From Salinibacterium sp. ZJ70 (lineage in GTDB: Bacteria; Actinomycetota; Actinomycetes; Actinomycetales; Microbacteriaceae): 64,000 nucleotides of DNA. Of this stretch, positions 55,170 to 61,410 are shown piece after piece. The position numbers were made by a program, and so were the translations under genes. Numbering within the stretch: the first letter of the stretch is position 1; the number at the start of each line of letters is the position of its first letter. The DNA is taken from assembly GCF_011751865.2 (NCBI RefSeq), contig NZ_CP061770.1, positions 744,001 to 808,000 of the forward strand, read 5' to 3'. Below the pieces are notes generated by a model that worked only from the letters and a program-made list of their open reading frames with translations, searched no databases and was not told where the DNA came from.

Positions 55170-55188
55170 TACCGTGAGAGCGCTCCCA
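55170..55188 (+). promoter_or_regulatory. GH9 promoter with CelR/CebR-like box
   Basis: TGAGAGCGCTCCCA (55175-55188) differs at one position from TGGGAGCGCTCCCA, the box bound by the cellulose regulator CelR of Thermobifida. TACCGT at 55170-55175 is a likely -10, so the box covers the transcription start, as expected for a repressor. Confidence 0.7.
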
Positions 55189-55212
55189 CATCGACGTGGA
55201 CCGAGGAGACCC

Positions 55213-57690
55213 GTGCGCCACCACCACACCCGCACCCGCCCTGCCACCCGCGCCGGCCGCCACGGCGCCCGCACAGCGGGCGGCATCGCCGCCGCATTGC
55301 TCGCTGTGGGCGTCATCGGCGCCCCCGCCTTCGCCGCACCCGCCGTCGACGACCTCGGGCCCGAGCTCATCGCCAACGGCACATTCGACGCCGGCCACGA
55401 ACCGTGGTGGACCACCCCCGACACCGTCGCCGACAGCTCGAGCGGCGCCCTCTGCGTCGACGTCCCCGGTGGCACGACCACCGCGTGGTCGACGATCGTC
55501 GGCCTCGACGACATCCCGCTCGTGAAGGGCGAGAGCTACCGCTACAGTGCGCGGATGAGCGGCACCGCCCCGGTGACGATCCGTGTGCTCGCACAGCAGG
55601 ATCAGGCTCCGTGGACGGCAACCTACGAGACCAACCCCACGACCGCCTCCGACATGACCCTCCACCAGGGCGGCTTCACCTCGACCCTCGACTGGCCGAC
55701 CGGGCAGCTCGTCTTCCAGATCGGCGGATCCGAGACCGACTGGACGTTCTGCCTCGACGACGTCTCCTTCCGAACCGGGCCGCCGCCCGAGCCCTACGTC
55801 GCTGAGACGCACTCCTCGATCCGAGTCAACCAATACGGCTACCTGCCCTCCGGCCCCAAGCGGGCCACGATCCTCGTCGACTCAGCCGAGGCCGCAGGCG
55901 TCGACTGGGTTCTGCGTGACGCCGAAGGCGGGGAGGTCGCGCGCGGCACAGCTGAGCCGCTCGGCGACGACCGCACCGTCGCGTCTGCCGTGCAGCGCGT
56001 CGTGTTCGACGACGTGCGCGCCACCGGCGACGGCTTCACCCTCGAAGCGGGGGGCGAGACGAGCTACCCGTTCTCGATCCGCGACGGCCTGTACGCCTCC
56101 CTCGCCACCGACGCGCTCGGCTACTTCTACCTCGCCCGCAGCGGCATCGAGATCGAAGCCGAGCACGCGGGCGAGCAGTATGCGCGCCCCGCCGGCCACC
56201 TGGGCGTCGACCCCAACCAGGGCGACCTCGCGGTCGGCTGCCAGCAGCCGCGCGAGTACTACCAGAACTGGACGTGCGACAGCGTCTTCGACGTGAGCGG
56301 CGGCTGGTACGACGCGGGCGACCACGGCAAGTACGTCGTCAACGGCGGCATCGCGGTGCACCAGGTGCTCGATATCTGGGAGCGGGCACTCATCACCGGC
56401 TCGACCGAGCCGCTCGCCGACGGCATGCTCTCGATCCCGGAGGCCGGCAACGGCATCCCCGACATCCTCGACGAGGCCCAGTGGCAGCTCGACTGGATGC
56501 TGCGCATGCAGGTGCCGGACGGCGAGCAGTACGCGGGCATGGTGTTCCACAAGGTGCAGAACGACGCCTGGTCGGGGCTCCCGACGATGCCATGGCTCGA
56601 CGACAAGCCGCGGCAGGTGCACCGCCCCTCGACGGCCGCGACGCTCAACTTCGCCGCCGTCACCGCCAAGGGATCGCGCCTGTTCGCCGAGTTCGACCCC
56701 GACTACGCGGCCCGGCTGCTCGACGCCTCACGCCTCGCGTGGGGGGCGGCTCTCGCCACCCCCGACCTCTACGCATCGCCCGCAGACGGCAACGACGGCG
56801 GCGGGCCCTACGACGACCTGACGGTCGACGACGAGTTCTACTGGGCCGCCGTGGAGCTCTTCCTGACGACCGGGGAGAGCGAGTTCGCCGACTTCGTCGC
56901 CGCGAGCCCTGTCGCCGAGATCTCGATCGATGCCGAGGGCGGATTCGACTGGCGCGAGACCGCCGCGCTCGGACGCATGGACCTCGCACTCGTCGAGTCG
57001 GAGCATCCGGGCCGCGAGGCGGCGCGTGCCTCGATCGTCGACGCCGCCGACAGCTATCTGGCTGCCGCAGAGAACGCCTTCGAGCACCCGTACCGGCCCC
57101 GCGACGGGGAATACGACTGGGGTTCCAACGCGATCATCCTCAACAACCAGGTGATCCTCGCGACCGCATCCGACATCACGGGGGAGTCGCGCTACCGTGA
57201 CGCCGTCGTGACGGCGATGGACTATCTGCTCGGCCGAAACGGCGTCGACACGTCGTTCATCACCGGGTACGGCACCGCGTACGCGCAGAACCAGCACCAC
57301 CGCTGGATGGCGCCGTCGCTGAACGCGTCGCTCCCGCCCATCTCGCCCGGAACCATCGCCGGCGGGCCGAACAGCGCGATCCAGGACCCCGTCGCGCAGC
57401 AGGCATGGCCGGACGGCTGCACGGCACAGCTCTGCTACCTGGATGACATCCAGTCGTGGTCCACCAACGAGATGACGATCAACTGGAACTCGGCGCTCAG
57501 CTGGGTGACCACATGGATCGCGCTCCGCGCGGATCCGGGAACCCCCGGTGGTGTGGTGACCGCGCAGAGCGACGGGCTGCCCCTCGGCCTCGTGATCCCC
57601 GCCGGACTTGCGCTCGCGGCCGGCACAGCGGGCGGTGCGCTGGTCCTCATCCGACGACGACGCGGACCTGCACCCACGCGAACGAACTGA
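55213..57690 (+). CDS. GH9 endoglucanase with CBM4/9-like and Ig-like domains, membrane-anchored
   Basis: An 825-residue secreted cellulase. Signal peptide (about 1-42, cut near AFA-AP); carbohydrate-binding module of the CBM4/9 type (about 46-190, LIANGTFDAGHEPWW, FCLDDVSF); CelD-type Ig-like domain (about 195-290, IRVNQYGYLPSGPKRATI); GH9 catalytic (alpha/alpha)6 barrel (about 300-780) with Asp367/Asp370 (YDAGDHGKY), His-His-Arg near 695 and the acid Glu753 (STNEMTINWNSAL). A C-terminal transmembrane helix (about 795-817) and RRRR tail keep it on the surface instead of an LPXTG signal. GTG start with GAGGAG upstream. It cuts beta-1,4-glucans. Confidence 0.95.
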   Translation: MRHHHTRTRPATRAGRHGARTAGGIAAALLAVGVIGAPAFAAPAVDDLGPELIANGTFDAGHEPWWTTPDTVADSSSGALCVDVPGGTTTAWSTIVGLDDIPLVKGESYRYSARMSGTAPVTIRVLAQQDQAPWTATYETNPTTASDMTLHQGGFTSTLDWPTGQLVFQIGGSETDWTFCLDDVSFRTGPPPEPYVAETHSSIRVNQYGYLPSGPKRATILVDSAEAAGVDWVLRDAEGGEVARGTAEPLGDDRTVASAVQRVVFDDVRATGDGFTLEAGGETSYPFSIRDGLYASLATDALGYFYLARSGIEIEAEHAGEQYARPAGHLGVDPNQGDLAVGCQQPREYYQNWTCDSVFDVSGGWYDAGDHGKYVVNGGIAVHQVLDIWERALITGSTEPLADGMLSIPEAGNGIPDILDEAQWQLDWMLRMQVPDGEQYAGMVFHKVQNDAWSGLPTMPWLDDKPRQVHRPSTAATLNFAAVTAKGSRLFAEFDPDYAARLLDASRLAWGAALATPDLYASPADGNDGGGPYDDLTVDDEFYWAAVELFLTTGESEFADFVAASPVAEISIDAEGGFDWRETAALGRMDLALVESEHPGREAARASIVDAADSYLAAAENAFEHPYRPRDGEYDWGSNAIILNNQVILATASDITGESRYRDAVVTAMDYLLGRNGVDTSFITGYGTAYAQNQHHRWMAPSLNASLPPISPGTIAGGPNSAIQDPVAQQAWPDGCTAQLCYLDDIQSWSTNEMTINWNSALSWVTTWIALRADPGTPGGVVTAQSDGLPLGLVIPAGLALAAGTAGGALVLIRRRRGPAPTRTN

Positions 57691-57702
57691 TTCTCGAAAC
57701 CT

Positions 57703-57731
57703 GCGTCACGATCCGGCGCGGGAGCGCTCTC
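57703..57731 (+). promoter_or_regulatory. Bipartite ECF-promoter-like motif, copy 1
   Basis: GCGTCACGATCCG (57703-57715), 11 bases, then CTCTC (57727-57731). An identical layout is found at 59787-59815. It lies between the cellulase stop and the sigma gene start, about 140 bp before the latter; TAGCCT at 57834 may be an additional vegetative -10. Confidence 0.5.
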
Positions 57732-57873
57732 ATCATCGTGGGCACCAGCGCGCAGATCGAGGGCCGGGCGGCCAGGGCCGCCTCGGGACACCTCGATGCG
57801 CGCCTCCACGTTGGGACGACGAACATCACTGACGTAGCCTTGCCGGACTCCGATGATCGGGGGGGAGTCAGGG

Positions 57874-59730
57874 ATGACGAGAGTGGAAAACGACGTCGAG
57901 TGGGGCGACCACGAGCTGATCACGCGCAGCAAGGCTGGCGATCGTGACGCCTTCGGGGAGCTCTGGCGTCGGCATTCGGACGCTGCGCGGCGGGTTGCGG
58001 CGCTCTATGCACCGCACGTCGCCGATGACATCACCGTCGATGCGTTCGCCGCGATCTTCCAGCAGTTCCAGAAGCAGGGTGGCCCCGACCACGCGTTCCG
58101 TGCGTACCTCTACACCGTGGTGCGCAACCTCGCCGCCAAGGAGCAACGCTCGGCGTCCCGCCTCACCGACCAGCCTCTCGACGAGCAGATGGCCAGTCCG
58201 ATGACCGTCGAAGAGGAGACGCTGGCTCAGCTGGAGAACGGCGCGACGGCGTCGGCCTTCCGAGCGCTTCCTGAGCGCTGGCAGTCCGTGCTCTGGTACG
58301 TCGACGTCGAAGGCCTGAAACCGGCGCAGGCCGCGCCCCTGCTGGGCATCGAGCCGAACGCCGTGTCCGCTCTTGCTCTGCGCGCGCGCGAGGCGCTGAA
58401 GCAGAACTGGATCCAGGCGCAGCTCGCGGGCGGGGCGGCCGGCCCCGATTGCGCCGTTGTCGACGACAACCTCGGCAAGTTCACCCGACGCAAGGTCTCG
58501 GCCCGCACGCAGGCGAAGATCGACGCCCACGCCTCAGGGTGCATGCGGTGCCGTGCGGTGATCGCGGAGGGCGCTGACCTCGATCGGCATCTCGCGGCGA
58601 TCCTCTTCCCGATCGTCACGGGTGTCAGCGCCGCAGCCCTGCTGCGGGACGCGGTCGCACCGGCGACGGCCGCCGCGGCGCCGGTGCCGGCCGCGATCTT
58701 CGGCGAGCCGTCGCGCGTCGTCGACGCTGCCGTGCTCGCCGGGCCCCCTGCAGGGCCGGAGACGCTGGGTGCCGGTCCGGGAGCGCGGAACCCCGGATCT
58801 CAGCGGTCCTCCCTCACGGGCTCCTCGGCTGGCTCGGGCTCCGGCTTCGGCGCCACCGCGCTGGTGGGCCTTGCCGCTGCGGTGGTCGTGGTCGGATCAG
58901 GCGCGGGTGTCGCGGTGGTGTCGCACCTCGCGTCGCCGCCCGCTGCCGAGCAGGAACAGCCGACGACCCCTGACGACGGCGACCAAGCGCCTCCGACGCC
59001 CGTGGACCAGGAGACGGATGCGGGGGCACCCGTCGGCGAGGTCGAGGAACTCCCTGCCGCCCCGGGGGCCGACTCGCGTGATCGCACGGACTCGCGTGCA
59101 CCTGTCACGGTGCCGCCCGCGGTCGTCGCCCCCACGCCTGCCCCGGTGTCGCCGCGCCCGGATGCTCCGGTCTTCGGGGCGGTCGCGTCGATCGCCGCGG
59201 GCTCGCTCCCGACGTCCATGACCGGCACGGGCGAGCCCGGTGCGACGATCTCGGTGCGGCGAGGCAGTGAGATCATCGCCCAGGTCGTGGTGGCGGATGA
59301 TGGCACGTGGACGGTGCCGTTCACGAATGTGGAGTTCGCGGCGGGATCCACGGCGCTGCAGATCACCCAGTCGACCGAACGTGACTCCGTCGTCTACGAG
59401 TCAGCCCCCACAGCGGTGACGGTCGAGGCCGCGGTGCCCACGTTGGCACTCGGATCCTGGTATCTCGACGGGGTCGATCTCAGGGCGCCGATCACCGTCG
59501 ACCTGGCATCCGATGTCGAGGTGCTGATCTACCTGCAGTCAGGTGGAGGCGAGGTCACTGCTGCCGGCCAGATGCAGGTCGGTGGACTCAATGCCGCCAC
59601 GTACCGCTTCGAGGGCGGTGCGCCTGTGGGGACCGTCGCGCGTCTGGGGGTCGCAGTGTTCGACCCGGTGACGGGCGCCCGCGGTCCGATCGGATGGACC
59701 GAGAGCGTCGTTCCCGACCCCGGGATCTGA
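57874..59730 (+). CDS. Membrane-tethered ECF sigma factor fused to anti-sigma-like zinc domain and Ig-like ectodomain
   Basis: A 618-residue fusion. Sigma region 2 (about 12-92: DRDAFGELWRRHSDAARR, AFRAYLYTVVRNLAAKEQR) and region 4 (about 125-180: LPERWQSVLWYVDVEGLKP, LLGIEPNAVSALALRARE) are those of an ECF sigma factor. Next comes a zinc-binding zf-HC2-like segment, Cys193, His219, Cys223, Cys226, as in anti-sigma factors; a weakly hydrophobic stretch (241-258); a strong transmembrane helix (about 325-350); a Pro/Thr linker; and an Ig-like outer domain (about 430-618, GEPGATISVRRGSEIIAQVV with DDGTWTVPF). It should sense something outside and release or activate the sigma part. ATG 57874 follows GGGGGGAGTCAGGG; ATG 57853 is an alternative. 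Confidence 0.85.
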   Translation: MTRVENDVEWGDHELITRSKAGDRDAFGELWRRHSDAARRVAALYAPHVADDITVDAFAAIFQQFQKQGGPDHAFRAYLYTVVRNLAAKEQRSASRLTDQPLDEQMASPMTVEEETLAQLENGATASAFRALPERWQSVLWYVDVEGLKPAQAAPLLGIEPNAVSALALRAREALKQNWIQAQLAGGAAGPDCAVVDDNLGKFTRRKVSARTQAKIDAHASGCMRCRAVIAEGADLDRHLAAILFPIVTGVSAAALLRDAVAPATAAAAPVPAAIFGEPSRVVDAAVLAGPPAGPETLGAGPGARNPGSQRSSLTGSSAGSGSGFGATALVGLAAAVVVVGSGAGVAVVSHLASPPAAEQEQPTTPDDGDQAPPTPVDQETDAGAPVGEVEELPAAPGADSRDRTDSRAPVTVPPAVVAPTPAPVSPRPDAPVFGAVASIAAGSLPTSMTGTGEPGATISVRRGSEIIAQVVVADDGTWTVPFTNVEFAAGSTALQITQSTERDSVVYESAPTAVTVEAAVPTLALGSWYLDGVDLRAPITVDLASDVEVLIYLQSGGGEVTAAGQMQVGGLNAATYRFEGGAPVGTVARLGVAVFDPVTGARGPIGWTESVVPDPGI

Positions 59731-59786
59731 TCGCTGAGGGCGTGGATCGCTCCGTCGAGAGAGGCCGGAAAGTTTTTCGGAGTTTC

Positions 59787-59815
59787 GCGTCACGATCCGC
59801 CGGAAGCGAGCTCTC
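59787..59815 (+). promoter_or_regulatory. Bipartite ECF-promoter-like motif, copy 2
   Basis: GCGTCACGATCCG (59787-59799), 11 bases, then CTCTC (59811-59815), identical in both parts and in spacing to the copy before the sigma gene. It lies about 57 bp after the sigma gene stop and 41 bp before a small open frame. Confidence 0.5.
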
Positions 59816-59856
59816 TTCTCTCGACAACGTTCCGCCGACGCCGAAGAGAGCCACTG

Positions 59857-60063
59857 ATGTCCCGAGTCAGTTCTGCGACCCCCCTGCCTGCAGGCTCCCT
59901 CGCGATCACTATTCCCGCGGGCGTTGTCTTCCGTGTGCGGCTGCTCGCGACGGAAGTCGGTGAGTCCCGTCGTCTCTGCCCCCAGGGCGGCGCGGGCACA
60001 CCCGGTCCGGCGCAGCCGCGTTACGCCAGAGGTGAGGTCAGGCACCTGTACCCGCAGGGCTGA
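59857..60063 (+). CDS. Possible small gene downstream of the ECF-like motif
   Basis: A 68-residue frame starting MSRVSSATPLPAGSLAITIP, with a hydrophobic middle and a Gly/Pro/Arg-rich end. It has no known motif and only a weak GAAGAGAG ahead of the ATG. It is listed because it is the only open frame after the motif at 59787-59815, in a 456-bp gap (59731-60186) otherwise holding only hairpins. The transcript may equally be a non-coding RNA. Confidence 0.25.
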   Translation: MSRVSSATPLPAGSLAITIPAGVVFRVRLLATEVGESRRLCPQGGAGTPGPAQPRYARGEVRHLYPQG

Positions 60064-60070
60064 TCGCCTC

Positions 60071-60101
60071 GATGTGGCCGCCGCACCCGGGCGGCCACAT
60101 C
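60071..60101. terminator. Hairpin 1 in the sigma-rmuC gap
   Basis: 12-bp perfect stem GATGTGGCCGCC (60071-60082) with 60090-60101, 7-base loop. Confidence 0.65.
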
Positions 60102-60103
60102 CG

Positions 60104-60138
60104 CGGAGGGGTCGCGACGGCATCTCGCGACCCCTCCG
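60104..60138. terminator. Hairpin 2, before the rmuC end
   Basis: 14-bp perfect stem CGGAGGGGTCGCGA (60104-60117) with 60125-60138, 7-base loop, two bases after hairpin 1. Together they separate two converging transcripts. Confidence 0.7.
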
Positions 60139-60186
60139 TGCACCGTGCTGCTCTCGACAGCGCCGTCGCGCGCGCTGGCGGAAACG

Positions 60187-61410
60187 TCAGCCGATGCTGC
60201 GTGATGTGGCGGCGTCGGCTTCGAGCGATTCGATGAGCTCGGAGGCCGCGAGCTGGCGCACATCCGCGTCGAGTTCGCCCACGGGTGCGAGCACCTTCGT
60301 CTCGTCGAGCTGACTGAGGCGTCGAGCCGACGGAAGCACCTGCCGCTCGAGCGAGCCGACGAATCCGTTGTAGTCGCGCACGCTGCGCTCGAGCGACCGG
60401 CCGAGCTTGTCGACGTGGGTGGCGAGCGTGGTGATGCGCCCGTACAGCTCGCGCGACACATCGAAGAGCGTGCGCGCCTCCTGCGTGACGATCTCATGCC
60501 GCCAGCTCACCGCGACGGCTTTGAGCACCGAGAAGAGGGTCACGGGGGAGGCGAGCGCCACATGACGGTCGAAGGCGAACTGCATGATCGACGGGTCGGC
60601 CTCGAGCGCCGCCGAGAGCAGCGACTCGCTCGGGATGAACGCGACGACCATCTCCGGGCTCGATTCGAGGCCGTCCCAGTAGCGCCGCGCCCCGAGTGCG
60701 GTGACGTGGTCTCGGACGGCCTTCACATGCTGGGCGAGCAGGCTCGCGCGACGGGCGCGCTCGGCGTCGTCGGCCGTCTCGGGGATCGCCGACGCCTCGA
60801 GGTAGGCCGAGAACGGCACCTTCGAGTCGACGGCGATGCTCTTGCCGCCCGGCAGGCGCACGATCATGTCGGGGCGCGCGGTGCGCCCATCGACCGAGAT
60901 GGTCGACTGCAGGTCGAAGTTCACGTGCTCGAGCATCCCCGCCGCTTCGACGACGGCGCGCAGCTGGGTCTCGCCCCACACGCCGCGCGTCGCGTTGTTG
61001 CGGAGGGCCCCGGCGAGGCCCTCAGCCGTCTGGCGCAGGCGCTCCTCGGAGGCCGTGACATGGCGGAGCTGCTCGGCGATCTCACCGTGCTGGCGGCTGC
61101 GCTGCCCTTCGAGCTCGGCCACCTTGGCGCGCATCTGCTCGAGGGATTCGCTCACCGGGGCGAGCGCCTGCAGCACGCGGTTCTCATCCGTGAGCGCCGC
61201 TGACCGCTGGCGGGCCTCGGCCTCGGTGCGCTGCAGCAGCTCGGCGTACATGCCGCGGGCCGAATCGAGCTGCTCGCGCATGCCCTCGACGCGGGCGTCA
61301 GCCACCGCCGTCGCGGAGGTCGTGCGGGCACGCCAGACGGCGGCCGTCACGATCGTCGCGATCGCGGCGCCGAGCACGAGGCCGATCAGCAGGGGAAGCA
61401 GTGCGTCCAT
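60187..61410 (-). CDS. rmuC: DNA recombination protein RmuC
   Basis: A 407-residue protein that limits inversions between short repeats. N-terminal transmembrane helix (about 4-24, LLPLLIGLVLGAAIATIVTAAV), long coiled coil (about 35-130, EGMREQLDSARGMYAELLQR), then the PD-(D/E)xK-like RmuC core: RGVWGETQLRAVVEAAGML, ARPDMIVRLPGGKSIAVDSK and FIPSESLLSAALE. ATG at 61410 chosen because the membrane helix follows at once and GAGACT lies six bases upstream. Divergent from the LysR gene. Confidence 0.94.
   Translation of the reverse strand: MDALLPLLIGLVLGAAIATIVTAAVWRARTTSATAVADARVEGMREQLDSARGMYAELLQRTEAEARQRSAALTDENRVLQALAPVSESLEQMRAKVAELEGQRSRQHGEIAEQLRHVTASEERLRQTAEGLAGALRNNATRGVWGETQLRAVVEAAGMLEHVNFDLQSTISVDGRTARPDMIVRLPGGKSIAVDSKVPFSAYLEASAIPETADDAERARRASLLAQHVKAVRDHVTALGARRYWDGLESSPEMVVAFIPSESLLSAALEADPSIMQFAFDRHVALASPVTLFSVLKAVAVSWRHEIVTQEARTLFDVSRELYGRITTLATHVDKLGRSLERSVRDYNGFVGSLERQVLPSARRLSQLDETKVLAPVGELDADVRQLAASELIESLEADAATSRSIG

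Follow-up and report, generated by a model that had tools for sequence, protein, structure and literature searches.

A predicted two-block promoter shared by the gene for a presumably membrane-tethered ECF sigma factor and the unit that follows it

The sigma locus and its two motif copies

The locus lies in a 64-kb stretch of the Salinibacterium sp. ZJ70 genome, hereafter the window, to which coordinates refer unless a genome is named. On the forward strand, a gene at 57853..59730 encodes an ECF sigma factor that continues, in the same protein, into a probable zinc-finger anti-sigma domain, a hydrophobic stretch and an Ig-like domain in its outer part. Translation may in fact begin at the ATG at 57874, which is preceded by GGGGGGGAG, a better ribosome site. 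The protein matches the NCBIfam sigma70-ECF model TIGR02937 with 58.3 bits (cut-off 42.9), the sole model above its cut-off among those shown, and the Pfam domain Sigma70_r2 with 26.8 bits (cut-off 24); Sigma70_r4_2, at 24.5 bits, falls just below its cut-off of 25.7. As judged from its sequence, the protein is an ECF sigma factor with regions 2 and 4 only. The zinc-finger domain zf-HC2 scored 19.8 bits (E = 8e-4), below its cut-off of 22.2, and the protein contains HASGCMRC, an HxxxCxxC motif. The hydrophobic, presumed membrane segment was read by eye from the translation. In the outer part, Pfam found no carbohydrate-binding domain and instead placed Big_6 above its cut-off (31.4 bits). Directly upstream of the first motif copy, and thus before that promoter rather than behind it, lies a GH9 gene (55174-57690), whose cellulase-like product has a CBM_4_9 domain and, by eye, a C-terminal tail that is hydrophobic and basic. 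A convergent gene, putatively rmuC, follows the sigma gene and has its 3′ end at 60187.

An earlier note on this DNA had described the motif GCGTCACGATCCG-N11-CTCTC on both sides of the sigma gene, and both copies are exact, with 0 mismatches each, and lie outside long genes. Copy 1 (57703..57731, forward strand) reads GCGTCACGATCCGGCGCGGGAGCGCTCTC and sits upstream of the sigma gene, between the end of the GH9 gene (57690) and the start of the sigma open reading frame (57853); CGTCAC is its presumed −35 and TCTC its presumed −10 element. Copy 2 (59787..59815, same strand) reads GCGTCACGATCCGCCGGAAGCGAGCTCTC and begins 56 bp past the sigma stop (59730). The blocks of 13 and 5 bases described in that note are exact, but the core conserved in relatives is shorter than 13 bases. 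Likewise, the 11-base spacer does differ in sequence between the copies, yet its last base, G, is common to both, so that the second block is better written GCTCTC.

Allowing up to three mismatches, the window contains the two copies at 0 mismatches and one third place at 3; dinucleotide shuffles of the window gave a mean of 0.63 matches, and 5 of 100 shuffles reached 3 matches. The same scan of the 2.84-Mb genome returned 17 matches, namely the two copies at 0 mismatches and 15 places at exactly 3.

Recurrence of the motif at sigma genes of relatives

With the sigma part of the protein as query, 126 of the 149 genomes searched gave a match. From the list of matches, 40 regions were fetched, mainly by protein score, and these contain 42 fused sigma genes; 25 further sigma genes, whose loci had been selected through the motif, were excluded from the evidence counts. 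No close relative of this particular sigma gene was found in the search, the best same-genus match having 47% identity over part of the query. Such genes are greatly expanded in one relative (G011; for example, L099 and L100), where at least 19 matches were counted, 19 of the 43 first-look candidates having been scored. Searching the 149 relatives with a trimmed form of the original motif at two mismatches was abandoned, as it returned mostly noise, with matches in at least 133 of the 149 genomes, and the consensus drawn from the sigma loci took its place.

For counting, we used the strict pattern CGTCAY-N18-TCTC with an upstream limit of 330 bp, and took the expectation from the density of the pattern elsewhere in the same loci. 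The strict motif lies within this distance upstream of 13 of the 42 sigma genes (0.08 expected), and a second copy adjacent to the sigma gene, placed divergently on its upstream side or immediately after it, is present at 20 of 42 (0.16 expected). Both copies occur at 11 of these genes, at least one at 22 and none at 20. Closer homologues of the sigma carry at least one site in 20 of 29 cases, against 2 of 13 for homologues with a tblastn score below 150, from which it follows that distant paralogues must use other promoters. A looser matrix scan found weaker variants at some of the sigma genes that have no strict motif. Two loci of the same order (L089 and L090) have a divergent variant site in which GCGTCAT is kept and the −10 part is changed to CTCCC or GTCAC; these score 17.3 and 20.9, where the null reaches at most 12.9, and their −10 element has perhaps drifted together with the sigma.

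Alignment of 37 sites (35 from relatives and the two in the window) gave the consensus GCGTCAYR-N17-TCTCTY-N4-T(G/A), preceded by an A-rich flank, in which the spacing is invariable by construction of the search pattern. GAAACCT, just 5′ of copy 1, resembles this flank. A T follows TCTC in 32 of the 37 sites, and copy 1 reads TCTCAT. GATCCG, also shared by the two window copies, recurs in some relatives' sites and is not obligatory.

We then built a weight matrix from the 35 relatives' sites, leaving out those of the window, and applied it to all 65 places in the host genome that match SGTCAY-N18-TCTC. Copy 2 ranked first (28.0) and copy 1 second (22.1); the third candidate scored 11.2, the median was −3.0, and no other place in the 64-kb window scored above 8. 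Because the matrix ranks the two copies so far ahead, the regulon that the motif makes visible here would consist of the sigma gene and the unit that follows it. The earlier note had named frequent occurrence of the motif inside coding regions across the genome as a point against recognition by a sigma factor; by mismatch scan and matrix ranking alike the motif is rare, and that reading stands. It is further supported by the fixed spacing, the free spacer and the recurrence of the motif with the sigma gene. Autoregulation with one more target, also proposed there, is supported by a site before the sigma gene and one adjacent copy, both of which recur far above chance. Given the paired recurrence at sigma loci and the top two matrix ranks, the motif very probably constitutes the promoter that belongs to the neighbouring ECF sigma factor; that this sigma is the one that recognises it we infer from the co-occurrence of site and gene.

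Units behind the second copy

The second transcript expected in the window would start behind copy 2, run through 59816..60070 on the forward strand and probably be non-coding. It is followed by two strong, terminator-like hairpins on the same strand, one at 60071..60101 that lacks a T run and one at 60102..60140, ahead of position 60187, where the convergent gene has its 3′ end. The stretch 59822-60068 (247 nt) folds no better than its shuffles (z = −0.27), and a 324-nt fold that includes both terminal hairpins has a z of −4.83. A 68-codon open reading frame (59857-60063) was considered as the second target and rejected: it has no family match, and its in-frame codon score of −0.17 is non-coding-like when set against a minimum of −0.03 over 204-nt segments of six long genes, which also trained the score, so that the comparison favours those genes. 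Rfam returned only sub-threshold animal, viral or unrelated matches for window positions 57500-60400. The second unit is most likely, though on weak support, a short transcript of about 250-320 nt that ends at the tandem hairpins before the convergent gene and encodes no convincing protein. The earlier note had also suggested looking for sites before surface-protein or glycoside hydrolase genes; surface proteins are indeed found behind such sites in relatives, but the second unit of the host is not recognisably either.

Many relatives have a comparable arrangement, in which the second copy is followed by about 110-220 nt up to a convergent gene, often presumably sdhB-like, with no convincing open reading frame between. 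Among the units downstream of a sigma gene we chose 22 by hand (group A), leaving out the downstream copies at L075, L096, L098, L107 and L255. Within about 100 nt, many group A units have the potential to fold into three hairpins. In 14 of the 22 (L077, L078, L079, L081, L083, L086, L241, L242, L243, L246, L254, L264, L266 and L269), CCCAG stands 71-85 nt after TCTC. A loop search found 14 of 22 units with CCCAG in a loop whose stem has 10 or more pairs, compared with 41 of 2,206 other positions; in L254, this search picked an earlier CCCAG. The units without this loop are L084 and L236-L239, all of one genus, and L072, L087 and L260. By eye, L084 and L236-L239 have a similar layout, and their first hairpin keeps a CCCGAA loop while its stem changes. 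The CCCAG loop is not shared, again by eye, by second units that lie divergently from the sigma gene.

The third hairpin was examined for covariation in six units, in which 94.4% of the cells of a 15-bp stem pair and 10 of the 15 pairs show two-sided changes. None of 500 shuffles paired as well, and sliding the alignment by one column lowered pairing to 42-47%. The pair count comes from six in-register sequences, after a nine-row alignment with three rows one column off had been set aside, a choice that favours structure. On this covariation, a conserved structured candidate RNA is encoded behind the second promoter in group A relatives. The third hairpin stays beside the promoter even where the sdhB-like gene is distant (L246, L264) or where the next gene looks like one for a secreted protein (L266); it is therefore not just the terminator of the sdhB-like gene. 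A model of the third hairpin (R1) gave 11 matches at E ≤ 0.01 in 299 genomes; seven lie behind the sigma's second promoter (six training sequences and one held out) and four weaker ones elsewhere, and this search adds little support. Behind copy 2 of the window, R1 gave no match at E ≤ 10, and we therefore do not equate the host's second unit with the hairpin RNA of relatives.

By sequence, a hairpin RNA of about 100 nt with this conserved CCCAG loop and covarying stem is predicted in at least eight genera. By eye, the start region of the sigma gene reads GGGGGAUG in 7 of 8 group A leaders, and its GGGAU could pair with an AUCCC loop that is present in part of the RNAs. We tentatively suggest, as a possibility we would not rate as high as even, that a membrane sensor and sigma combined in one protein is accompanied by a small RNA dedicated to it: in eight or more genera of this actinobacterial family, the fused sigma would activate its own gene and, next to it, a three-hairpin RNA of about 100 nt whose C-rich loops persist through changes of the stems. 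This RNA would form a new family and might act back on the mRNA of the sigma. The complement of the loop was also sought in 22 likely target leaders; the four loose matches (L259, L268, L185, L258) share no common position, and we name no target on that account. Hairpins with C-rich loops are known from the 6C RNA of Actinobacteria. The RNA described here is alike in that respect, with UCCCAG or GCCCAG as its loop, whereas Rfam gave no credible match for eight relative loci (sub-threshold animal, viral or unrelated families only). In the envelope stress response, sigma-E, a membrane-linked sigma factor, turns on small RNAs such as RybB and MicA. The likeness to these lies in the pairing of a membrane-linked sigma with a small RNA, which is predicted in our case; the sigma belongs to another group and another phylum, and the RNA is encoded beside the sigma gene.

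What copy 2 does in the host could be read differently, because in two genomes of the same genus it stands before a large gene for a surface-protein-like product, at 79 nt (G008) and 73 nt (G005). At L096 the product has 2,001 amino acids, begins with a signal-like sequence and matches an isopeptide-fimbrial domain below threshold; at L098 the gene is in pieces by crude gene calls. Since no convincing coding sequence lies behind copy 2 in the window, the copy might be the relic of a lost surface-protein gene and drive nothing useful, with copy 1 still autoregulatory. A relic would be expected to decay, however, and copy 2 outscores copy 1 (28.0 versus 22.1); moreover, several genera keep short non-coding second units with well-conserved sites. 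We regard a relic as rather unlikely, though it is the most serious competitor to a working second promoter.

A predicted circuit, known systems and further targets

We consider it highly probable that the sigma factor uses the two copies flanking its gene as promoters, from which it would transcribe that gene and one adjacent unit. A bipartite motif by itself does not distinguish a promoter from an operator, and the pair could in principle bind a repressor or activator encoded elsewhere. This is improbable, as the motif is non-palindromic, has −35/−10-like spacing, points to the unit that follows it and accompanies the fused sigma gene from genus to genus. That the pair arose by chance or by a recent local duplication without function, which the mere two copies in the genome would fit, is scarcely credible, because blocks and spacing are kept while spacer and flanks differ, and the arrangement recurs with different sequence in other genomes (at 20 of 42 loci).

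In the circuit that we propose, the zinc-finger, membrane and outer regions fused to the sigma factor would keep it at the membrane, as its domains suggest. A signal, probably at the cell surface, would free the sigma part, presumably by proteolysis, as a review proposes for fused ECF groups. Free sigma would then recognise CGTCAY (−35) and TCTC (−10), 18 bp apart, and transcribe its own gene, a positive feedback. It would also transcribe one adjacent unit, here a predicted short RNA and in relatives either a surface-protein gene or a short RNA with hairpins. With sensor and sigma in one protein and a private two-site regulon, the system would make a compact switch.

Parts of this design resemble known systems. 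For ECF41, a bipartite promoter with −35 TGTCACA, −10 CGTC and a 16-bp spacer stands before the sigma gene and its neighbour, and no target other than this neighbour is reported to be detectable (PMC3426412). The sigma studied here shares with ECF41 a C-terminal extension and, as predicted, a circuit of self plus neighbour (PMC3426412). It differs in its promoter, −35 GCGTCAY, N18 and −10 TCTC, the ECF41 pattern TGTCACA-n16-CGTC being absent from our sites; in its extension, which consists of zinc-finger, membrane and Ig parts; and in its partner, a surface protein or short RNA rather than the decarboxylase, oxidoreductase or epimerase of ECF41 (PMC3426412). In its apparent fusion of an ECF sigma to a putative zinc finger, a presumed membrane segment and an outer domain, the protein resembles ECF52/ECF53 of Actinobacteria (PMC5826349, PMC8999054), and for ECF48, ECF52 and ECF53 a review proposes release by proteolysis (PMC5826349/PMC8999054). 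A promoter signature for ECF52 has been predicted by Pinto and Mascher (2016). SCO4117 (ECF52/ECF53) has a putative motif, CSGYN-17bp-SRHA, in 29 promoters and a proline-rich, carbohydrate-binding outer part (PMC5826349/PMC8999054); our motif is unlike it, the visible regulon here is two sites, and the outer part has an Ig-like domain. We would accordingly file the sigma neither as ECF41 nor as ECF52/ECF53, its putative promoter differing from the motifs printed for ECF41 and SCO4117. A partial literature search, which did not extend to predicted ECF group signatures in the subscription literature, did not find the motif in print. If the prediction holds, the motif would serve as the promoter code of a group of membrane-tethered sigma factors, and high-GC Gram-positives would possibly have a new RNA family whose expression a sigma switches on; the predicted targets of the motif are the sigma genes themselves, sortase-type surface proteins and SigK-type sigma genes.

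The latter two classes emerged from family-wide searches. GCGTCAYR-N17-TCTCTY occurs at 65 places in 35 of 100 family genomes (reversed control, 3), and GCGTCATA-N16-STCTCTY at 83 places in 48 of 398 genomes (reversed control, 0). We fetched a subset of these places, 37 regions around the first pattern and 40 around the second. By crude gene calls, 12 of 39 sites in the first set lie inside genes and are probably chance. Most remaining sites have no recurrent nameable target. A choice-of-anchor G surface-protein gene, divergent from a secE-like gene, bears the motif in seven loci, four identified by NCBIfam (NF033766; L182, L184, L186 and L190) and three by BLAST to L190 (L259, L263 and L268). 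LAYTG or LAVTG tails are present in L184, L186 and L190, and the L182 frame is cut short. The host has such a gene as well (G000:1726068-1727006), which was considered as a third target; no site lies before it. The recurrent targets, which are these genes and the SigK-type genes described next, point to a role at the cell surface. A gene for a plain ECF sigma of the SigK type stands behind the motif in seven loci from seven genomes, two assigned by NCBIfam (L181 and L185) and five by BLAST (L247, L258, L265, L267 and L270), and a sigma-to-sigma cascade through these genes is possible on this arrangement. The motif lies 22-57 nt from the SigK-type gene in six of the loci; in L247, the start-codon call overlaps the site.
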